Assembly (NCBI RefSeq): GCF_001683915.1
Contig: NZ_LXTT01000143.1
Coordinates: forward strand, 1-64,000
DNA from: Allomuricauda sp. CP2A
GTDB lineage: Bacteria > Bacteroidota > Bacteroidia > Flavobacteriales > Flavobacteriaceae
DNA: 64,000 nucleotides
Reading direction: 5' to 3'
Shown: piece by piece, positions 19,562 through 22,276 of the stretch
Numbering within the stretch: the stretch's first letter is position 1
How the letters are laid out: the number at the start of each line of letters is the position of its first letter
Made by a program: the position numbers and the translations under genes
Notes under the pieces: model-generated
Databases searched by the model: none
What the model saw: the letters and a program-made list of their open reading frames with translations, nothing else
Told to the model about the DNA's origin: nothing

Positions 19562-22276
19562 ATGAAAAAATCAGTGATACACTTTTGTATGTTGGCGGCA
19601 ATGCTCATGTGCACCGGAAACATTATGGCACAGGACCCCAATTTTCATATTTATTTAAGCTTGGGGCAGTCAAATATGGAAGGGAACGCCCGAATAGAGG
19701 CACAGGACACCGTTGACATAAATGACCGTTTTAAGGTATTGCAAGCAGTTGACTGTCCTGACCTGAATAGGGAAAAGGGAAAATGGTACACCGCAGTACC
19801 TCCCTTAAGTAGGTGTAAAACAGGATTGACCCCCACTGATTATTTTGGAAGGACACTGGTGGAAAAACTTCCGGACAGCATAAAAGTTGGTGTGATCAAC
19901 GTGGCTGTAGGGGGCTGTAAAATTGAACTTTTTGACAAAGACAATTACAAGGAATACGTGTCAACCGCACCGGATTGGTTAAAGAACATGGTGGCGGAAT
20001 ATGATGGCAATCCATATGGTCGCCTTGTTGAAATGGCAAAGATTGCCCAAAAAGACGGTGTGATCAAGGGAATTCTATTGCATCAGGGAGAATCAAACAC
20101 TGGGGACACCCTTTGGCCCAAAAAAGTCAAAATAGTGTATGACAACATTCTTGAAGATTTGGATTTAGAGGCCTCAAAAACGCCTTTGCTTGCCGGGGAA
20201 ATGGTACACGCAGATCAGGGAGGAATATGTGCCAGCATGAACAAAATTGTGGCCACATTGCCAGAAACCATTCCCAATGCGCATATCGTTTCCTCTAAAG
20301 GATGTCCTGACGCCAAGGACAACCTTCATTTTAATGCTGAAGGGTATCGCATGCTTGGCAGAAGATATGCCATAAAGCTGCTCAATGTGCTGCGCAATCA
20401 AGCTAATGACCCGGTAGCCCAAAAACATGCTCCCGAAGGATTTGATACAGTTAGAAATGGAATACCAAAAGGTAGAATAGACAGTATAATGTACAGGTCA
20501 AAGACCGTGGGCACCGAGCGAAAGGCAATGATTTATACACCTCCGGGTTTTAGCAAATCAAAAAGATATCCGGTGTTGTACCTATTGCACGGTATAGGGG
20601 GTGACGAAAAGGAATGGCTTACCCACGGCACTCCGCAAGTAATATTTGACAACCTGTATGCAGACGGAAAATTGGAACCAATGATTGTGGTGATGCCCAA
20701 TGGACGGGCCATGAAGAATGACCGGGTGGAGGGAAATATTTTCAGTAAGGAAAGGGTAGAGGCGTTCGCTACTTTTGAAAATGACCTTTTAAACGATTTG
20801 ATCCCATTTATTGAGAAGAATTTTAAGGTATACAAGGATAGGGAACATAGGGCGATATCCGGGCTTTCCATGGGTGGCGGACAGACCTTGAATTTTGGTC
20901 TTGGCAATTTGGATACATTTGCTTGGGTCGGGGCATTTTCATCTGCTCCCAATACCAAAGTGCCCCAAGAATTGCTTCCAGACCCTGAAAAAGCCAAAAC
21001 ATTGGAATTACTTTGGATTTCCTGCGGGGATGCAGATGGCTTGATGCCTTTTAGCAAACGGACCAGCGATTATCTCCGAGATCACGATGTGCCCCATATT
21101 TTCTACGTGGAACCCGGAGGACATGATTTTGAGGTATGGAAAAATGACCTTTATATGTTCTCGCAATTGCTTTTTAAACCCGTGGATAAATCGATTCTCA
21201 ATAAATACAGTGTTTTGGGAATGCCGGCCAGTACCAATGTAAGGCGCGCCCAATATCCGCAAATTCTACCCGATAGTAGGGTGATTTTTAAGACAAAGGC
21301 CCCTGAAGCAAAACAGCTACAGATAGACCTCGGTAAAAAATACGATATGGAAATCGATGATGAAGGATTCTGGACGGTAACCACCGACTCCATCAGCGAA
21401 GGGTTTCATTATTATTCCTTACTTATTGATGGTGTTGCTGTGGCGGACCCCGCCAGTGAGACATTTTATGGTATGGGACGCATGGCAAGTGGTATTGAGA
21501 TTCCGTTTAAGGGAGATGGCTATTATAGCCTGAAGGAGGTGCCCCATGGTGATATCAGAATCAATAAATATTTTTCAGCGGCCTCGGGTACATGGCGCGA
21601 AATGTACGTCTATACCCCGCCAGGGTATGACAACTCTTCGGAAGACTATCCCGTACTTTACCTTTTGCATGGAGGCGGGGAAGACCAACGCGGTTGGGCC
21701 AATCAGGGCAAAACAAACTTAATTTTGGATAATCTGATTGCTGAAAACAAAGCTGAACCCATGATCATAGCTATGTTGGACGGTAATGTCTCCAGTCCTG
21801 GTGGAGTTGCTGGATTCAATGAAAATGCACTTGTGGCCTTTGAGAATGAGCTCAAACAAGGGGCAATCCCCTTTGTTGAGCAAAAGTATCGGGTAAAGAC
21901 CGGTGCCAAGAACAGGGCTTTGGCCGGACTGTCGATGGGTGGTTTGCAAACCTTGCATGCCGGGGTTCACAATACGGATATGTTTTCCCATTTAGGGGTG
22001 TTCAGTTCGGGCTGGTTCGCCAACAATGATGAATTATCGGGGCTACAGTATGAGTACATGCAAGACAATGTAGCTACCATAAACAACAACCTCAAAAATT
22101 TCTTTATTTCAATGGGAGGTCCAGAGGACATTGCCTATAAAAACTGTCAGGTGATGATGAGAAAATTTGATGAAATGGGCATTGAGTACGATTATAGCGA
22201 ATACCCTGGAGGCCATACGTGGCCTGTTTGGCGCCATGACCTATATAATTTTGCGCAATTGCTCTTTGCTGAATAA
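19562..22276 (+). CDS. three-domain esterase: CE6-like, CE1-like, E-set, CE1-like
   Basis: A 904-residue exported protein (signal peptide 1-23) with three apparently intact catalytic domains. Residues about 25-280 are SGNH/CE6-like acetylesterase: GQSNMEG with Ser37, HQGESNT, and His256 in [10 protein letters not shown]. Residues about 300-540 are CE1-like: Ser436 in GLSMGGG and His521 in PGGHDFEVW. Residues about 560-665 are an E-set domain like those of the single CE1 proteins upstream. Residues about 670-904 are a second CE1-like domain: Ser791 in GLSMGGL and His885 in [10 protein letters not shown]6-CE1 fusions acting as acetyl-feruloyl esterases are known in Bacteroidota; the extra E-set-CE1 unit resembles an upstream gene appended to such a fusion. 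Confidence 0.88.

Follow-up and report, generated by a model that had tools for sequence, protein, structure and literature searches.

A CE6-CE1-CBM48-CE1 protein of known architecture in Allomuricauda sp. CP2A retains three complete esterase active sites

The 64,000-nucleotide stretch of contig NZ_LXTT01000143.1 from Allomuricauda sp. CP2A that was analysed here (the window) carries at positions 19562-22276 of the plus strand a 904-residue open reading frame that runs unbroken from ATG through to the stop codon, which rules out a broken or frameshifted gene. This gene is the last in a run of six closely spaced ORFs on the same strand. The members of the run and the domains of the 904-residue protein are as follows.

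12663..13778, plus strand: winA, single E-set-CE1 esterase
13687..14943, plus strand: winB, single E-set-CE1 esterase
14976..16169, plus strand: winC, single E-set-CE1 esterase
16191..17753, plus strand: COesterase (PF00135) protein with a weaker match to BD-FAE
17781..19529, plus strand: GH43 plus GH43_C2 protein of the beta-xylosidase type, 32 bases upstream of the 904-residue gene
19562..22276, plus strand: CE6-CE1-CBM48-CE1 esterase gene, 904 residues (ORF, Pfam and model)
19634..20401, plus strand: CE6 (SASA, SGNH hydrolase) domain, residues 25-280, S37/D253/H256
20429..21181, plus strand: first CE1 domain (CE1-N), residues 290-540, S436/D492/H521
21212..21526, plus strand: predicted CBM48-like E-set, residues 551-655 (phmmer match to the PDB and model alignment)
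21539..22273, plus strand: second CE1 domain (CE1-C), residues 660-904, S791/E855/H885

The GH43 gene is probably in the same operon as the 904-residue gene. The ORFs of winA and winB overlap by 92 bases as listed, and the true start of winB probably lies further in.

Pfam places SASA (PF03629) at residues 28-274, with a score of 109.6 bits against a cut-off of 24.8, and Esterase (PF00756) in two stretches, the best of which is 673-895; no match to CBM48 was found in Pfam for the 904-residue protein at E 0.01. In phmmer comparison with the PDB, residues 290-536 match 1jjf, the feruloyl esterase domain of XynZ, with 245 bits, and residues 551-902 match 7b5v, a CBM48-CE1 protein and the best PDB match in that region, with 361 bits, while the CE6 domain finds solved esterases by weak sequence matches (2apj and 1zmb, E about 1e-4). 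The hallmarks of CE6/SASA are present, namely the SGNH-type serine, the glycine, Asp-x-x-His and the HQGE block, and both CE1 domains possess a G-x-S-x-G nucleophile and a triad. CE1-N is 50.8% identical to the XynZ domain, which according to its entry titles (1jjf, 1jt2) is part of a cellulosomal xylanase from Clostridium thermocellum, and nucleophile and acid are in register. In the alignments, entry 1jt2, whose title names the same XynZ domain, carries an alanine at the position of the 1jjf serine, which agrees with S436 as the nucleophile. By alignment all three triads, S37/D253/H256, S436/D492/H521 and S791/E855/H885, are complete. ORF, Pfam, PDB matches and alignment thus bear out the original prediction of a single 904-residue protein with three intact esterase sites; the residues it had named (Ser37/His256, Ser436/His521 and Ser791/His885) are all correct, and the alignments allow the acids D253, D492 and E855 to be added.

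An AlphaFold model of the full-length protein (29 sequences) is of moderate quality, with a mean pLDDT of 72.4 and a pTM of 0.52. It superimposes on 7b5v with Z 31.6 and an rmsd of 3.1 over 340 residues, and 7b5v, 6ne9 and 6rzo all align to it from residue 550. Residues 550-904 therefore align with solved CBM48-CE1 enzymes over both domains, which supports a reading of residues 551-655 as a predicted E-set beta-sandwich akin to the CBM48 domain in these enzymes. For the region outside 550-904, which is barely tested by these comparisons, the model aligns with 1jjf (Z 26.5, rmsd 2.5 over 242 residues) and, through its CE6 domain, with 1zmb (Z 21.8, rmsd 2.6, 216 residues) and 2apj (Z 21.7, rmsd 2.9, 219 residues), a likeness that is plainer in the fold than in the sequence. 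Residues 2-21 form a helix in the model that, judged by eye, is consistent with a signal peptide. The four domains CE6, CE1, CBM48-like E-set and CE1 thus follow one another on a single chain.

This architecture is already known: it has been published and, in part, characterised. Nine CE6-CE1-CE1 proteins from PULDB, all with a predicted CBM48 and most of them in Flavobacterium PULs, were counted in 2021 and reported as uncharacterised at that time (Kmezik 2021, PMC8040265); like the 904-residue protein they have three CE domains of these families per chain, and this is the only paper in the open-licence literature in which the string CE6-CE1-CE1 was found. One protein of this order, Fll4 (P162_RS04030) from the marine bacterium Flavimarina sp. 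Hel_I_48, has since been reported (Teune 2025, PMC12247016), with CE6, CE1a, a central CBM48-like domain and CE1b in the order described for it matching that found here, and with a PUL thought to target arabinoxylan. Both Fll4 and its single domains were expressed, by which CE6 was identified as an acetylxylan esterase and CE1a as a feruloyl esterase; Fll4_CE1b is reported as inactive on pNP-acetate and phenolic acid esters and as having negligible deacetylase activity, with misfolding given as a possibility. Teune et al. also doubt both CE1 labels of Fll4, suspecting an unclassified CE family, and advise caution over its CBM48 label. The CE6-CE1-E-set-CE1 layout of the original prediction is therefore upheld, by homology and by the characterised Fll4, whereas the novelty of this four-part order is not: nine counted in print in 2021 and one characterised in 2025 (PMC8040265, PMC12247016) rule out a new architecture. 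DmCE1B from Dysgonomonas mossii shares the CE1-CBM48-CE1 part, and its C-terminal portion is 7b5v; it differs in having, as described in PMC8040265, no CE6 on the chain, and its C-terminal CE1 shows minimal activity on model substrates. BoCE6-CE1 and FjCE6-CE1 have an N-terminal CE6 acetyl esterase and a C-terminal CE1 feruloyl esterase and, in the description given, differ in that a second CE1 is absent; such fusions have acetyl and feruloyl esterase activity, with domain synergy reported for the B. ovatus enzyme, the middle domain of which resembles CBM48 only slightly, at about 20% identity (PMC7110780).

Relatives were collected by genome scan, and the best 80 of 192 were taken as loci, with ORFs read from stop to stop. 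BLAST of single domains found the full CE6-CE1-CBM48-CE1 order on one chain in 26 of these 80 and CE1-CBM48-CE1 with CE6 absent from the same ORF in the other 54, numbers that are biased towards the 904-residue protein by the choice of the best 80 of 192, so that 26/80 is not a frequency. One of the 54 frames (L068) begins where its contig does, and a CE6 fused ahead of it could have been lost there. The nearest named relatives among the 80 are Allomuricauda aurea (89%) and A. abyssi (88%). Among the 71 genomes of the genus that were searched, the full-length protein lies on one frame in five, the CP2A genome included, and in a sixth (G256) it is present in two parts, at the end of one contig and the start of another. 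In a sample of 199 genomes of the family (CP2A again included), twelve gave any match at 1e-100; three, CP2A among them, match almost the full query within a single frame, and four cover CE1 to CE1 with CE6 absent from the frame, G115 reaching only residue 823 in this alignment. The distribution of the 904-residue protein is thus patchy but widespread.

At four loci (L036, 7243-9972; L037, 7229-9970; L039, 7129-9870; L040, 7096-9876) a CE6-bearing frame of 910-927 residues lies directly upstream of the CE1-CBM48-CE1 frame. That of L036, which alone of the four was scanned with Pfam, is a CE6-GH97 fusion; no paper on such a fusion was found by title among the matches listed from the open-licence literature. 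CE6 thus occurs on different partners in related lineages.

The active sites are well kept among the relatives, and this conservation speaks against a chance occurrence. S37, G117, E177, D253 and H256 are retained in all 26 CE6-bearing relatives, S436, D492 and H521 of the first CE1 in 80/80 loci, and S791 and H885 of the second CE1 likewise in 80/80. The oxyanion region of CE1-C includes residue 705, a glycine in 79 of the 80 loci and a tryptophan in L035. E855 is retained in 78/80, with threonine in L038 and glutamine in L056; both of these relatives have acidic residues nearby, so the assignment of E855 as the CE1-C acid is inferential rather than proved. Across the 29-sequence alignment the GLSMGG elbow and the GGH motif of CE1-C are invariant. 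For 14 of the 20 module comparisons (against L011, L012, L013 and L015) the Nei-Gojobori pairwise omega is 0.02-0.06, values that are rough since dS exceeds 1 in all 14 and is near saturation; the remaining six, comprising the four modules of L014 and CE1-N and CE1-C of L013, are dS-saturated. CE1-C shows in these sequence comparisons the signature of purifying selection. A degenerating C-terminal module is ruled out by the conserved active-site residues together with the low omega.

These data bear on what the second CE1 does. It may be silent in nature, a binding or structural module together with the E-set, which would leave the protein a plain two-activity CE6-CE1 enzyme. The biochemistry reported for Fll4_CE1b (PMC12247016) and the minimal activity of DmCE1B_ct (PMC8040265) favour this, as does the loss of the acid position in two of the 80 relatives; the retention of nucleophile and histidine in every one of the 80, the invariant elbow and GGH motif, and a CE1-C omega within the range of the other modules, where computable, stand against it, and we regard a silent second CE1 as unlikely. 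The second CE1 is in our reading probably an active esterase, as judged from its sequence conservation. A further possibility is that all three units are independent active esterases and that the two CE1 domains act on different substrates. Three intact triads agree with this, and CE1-N and CE1-C are only 41.6% identical and lie on separate tree branches, yet the published counterparts in Fll4 and DmCE1B are at most minimally active on the substrates reported; we put three active units with two CE1 substrates just short of an even chance. The original prediction of two CE1 specificities accordingly finds no support: in Fll4 the second CE1 was inactive on the substrates tried, and inactivity of one CE1 domain, an outcome that the prediction itself had named as counting against it, is seen in part in these two relatives.

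The origin of CE1-C was assessed in two CE1 trees of 90 and 76 rows, chosen from the loci plus G110 and G115 and built by a quick method, with SH-aLRT as the sole measure of support. In the 90-domain tree, 26 of 28 C-terminal CE1 domains fall into one branch (support 99), and the query CE1-C groups with other C-terminal domains with support 99 in both trees. The neighbours winA and winB fall outside this branch, winA grouping with wtsFae1A (6rzo) and winB with 6ne9. The third, winC, forms a separate branch adjoining that of CE1-C (support 85), a join that is among the long branches flagged in the first tree and that the second tree does not resolve. The shared E-set-CE1 layout and the adjacency of the genes might suggest a recent fusion in which the C-terminal E-set-CE1 was copied from one of the single esterases just upstream. 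CE1-C is, however, 40-42% identical to winA, winB and winC and 83.8% identical to its counterpart in L011, the supported sets that hold it are otherwise made up of C-terminal domains and include neither winA nor winB nor winC, and CE1-CBM48-CE1 with CE6 absent from the ORF is found across many other Bacteroidota, Dyadobacter, Chryseolinea and Pinibacter among them. We consider a recent fusion extremely improbable, and a recent copy of an upstream single esterase is ruled out by trees and identities. The likeness to the upstream esterases noted in the original prediction therefore holds for layout and fails for kinship, CE1-C lying outside their branches.

The type represented by 7b5v (DmCE1B_ct) also falls outside the CE1-C branch: it is 44.9% identical to CE1-C and pairs with the C-terminal CE1 of L063 (support 99 and 98), which weakens a direct equivalence between the C-terminal unit and DmCE1B_ct as far as sequence can tell. 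The C-terminal CE1 of L035, joined in the second tree by that of G115 (support 100), groups with winA and wtsFae1A. The trees thus give the following C-terminal CE1 domains from a branch other than that of most relatives.

L035, 9992-12673: C-terminal CE1 from another branch
L063, 10817-12838: C-terminal CE1 from another branch
L101, 2104-4005, other strand (own numbering): C-terminal CE1 from another branch

The first CE1, on the other hand, keeps to one branch in both trees (support 98 and 99); that two lineages have another C-terminal CE1 type behind it points to a putative exchange of the C-terminal module while the first CE1 was conserved. Perhaps some lineages have another CE1 type in the C-terminal place since their substrate differs. 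Among the 71 genus and 199 family genomes, and leaving aside the contig-cut piece of G256, frames that lack a first CE1 reach at most 52% in their match to the C-terminal unit; the two that reach it are both in G110, one near 7b5v and the other unplaced in the tree. The C-terminal E-set-CE1, which at these loci follows a CE1 of the feruloyl esterase type, may form an esterase subfamily of its own that acts on a distinct ester of plant or algal xylan, a proposal that we make tentatively and hold at somewhat below even odds.

Taken as a whole, we think it likely that the protein is, like Fll4, an exported xylan de-esterase with several catalytic units, an active second CE1 included, and this explanation excludes the silent-module alternative and overlaps with that of three active units, so that the probabilities given are not mutually exclusive. 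It is based on the domains, triads, conservation and genomic context presented here. CE6 and the first CE1 would act as their characterised relatives do; that the protein is exported, that its domains work in synergy and that the second CE1 has any activity we only infer. A bifunctional acetyl/feruloyl esterase for arabinoxylan is the best reading, probable by analogy, and the acetyl/feruloyl esterase role originally proposed is supported by homology and by Fll4, of the same order (PMC12247016). The first CE1, of the XynZ type, would take feruloyl and related hydroxycinnamoyl groups off arabinose side chains. The CBM48-like E-set would pack on the second CE1 and help to shape its cleft, and the second CE1 would be a catalytically complete esterase for some ester as yet unassigned. 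With these units on one chain, neighbouring decorations could be cleared together and the backbone opened to the adjoining GH43, and GH10 and GH67 enzymes encoded elsewhere in the genome might likewise gain access to it. What speaks against this explanation is the replaced acid in two relatives and the inactive or nearly inactive second CE1 of Fll4 and DmCE1B, and to these can be added the doubts of Teune et al. over the CE1 and CBM48 labels, the missing SusC/SusD pair among the ORFs scanned, the moderate model and the near-saturated synonymous sites. The 904-residue enzyme is ordinary apart from its third esterase unit, and the interest that is left lies in the substrate of that unit: conservation and branch structure of the second CE1 argue that it merits trial on natural esters rather than dismissal as dead. 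With this protein the small group of three-esterase xylan enzymes gains a well-conserved member; a single characterised enzyme of that group was found in the open-licence literature. The additions made here are modest, namely a CE1-C branch of its own, its serine and histidine kept throughout the 80 loci, apparent purifying selection, and another CE1 type in its place in two lineages.

The genomic context makes complex arabinoxylan or glucuronoarabinoxylan the likely substrate. The 904-residue gene differs from Fll4 in its neighbours: ahead of it lie winA, winB and winC, the COesterase gene and the GH43 gene, and a scan of 28 window ORFs reaching to 37046 found no SusC/SusD pair; within these ORFs, 34887-37046 has a TonB plug domain and no SusD partner was seen. 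In L011 the orthologue is preceded by GH127, an alpha-L-arabinofuranosidase and GH43, and in L016 it has GH43 ahead and GH95 and GH3 behind. In the CP2A genome itself there are three sites with GH10, one with GH67 and nine with GH43 that pass the cut-off, some of which are fragments of a single gene, and a glucuronoyl-esterase-like protein is encoded two genes after one GH10. Between that GH10 and the glucuronoyl-esterase-like gene lies a protein with SASA and polysaccharide deacetylase (CE4-type) domains (L096, 3761-6451).

Three further gene groups were seen in the window, all on the plus strand. At 292-10585 lies a sugar cluster with a FucI-C/sulfoquinovose-isomerase-like protein, a split transketolase, a Sde182-like protein, a ribose-type ABC transporter with a DUF2291 lipoprotein, and an FGGY kinase, which we take to resemble an isomerase-kinase-transketolase route for apiose. 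At 24974-27717 a 2Fe-2S protein overlaps a molybdopterin-cofactor-binding protein, with two DUF4440 proteins ahead, and this pair is probably a two-subunit molybdenum oxidoreductase. Positions 28006-34393 hold a six-gene run that resembles an ebo cluster, in the order EboA domain (144.5 bits, cut-off 50), TatD, UbiA, DHQ-synthase-like, EboE (478 bits, cut-off 250) and phosphodiesterase, the rest of which are presumably EboB, EboC, EboD and EboF.
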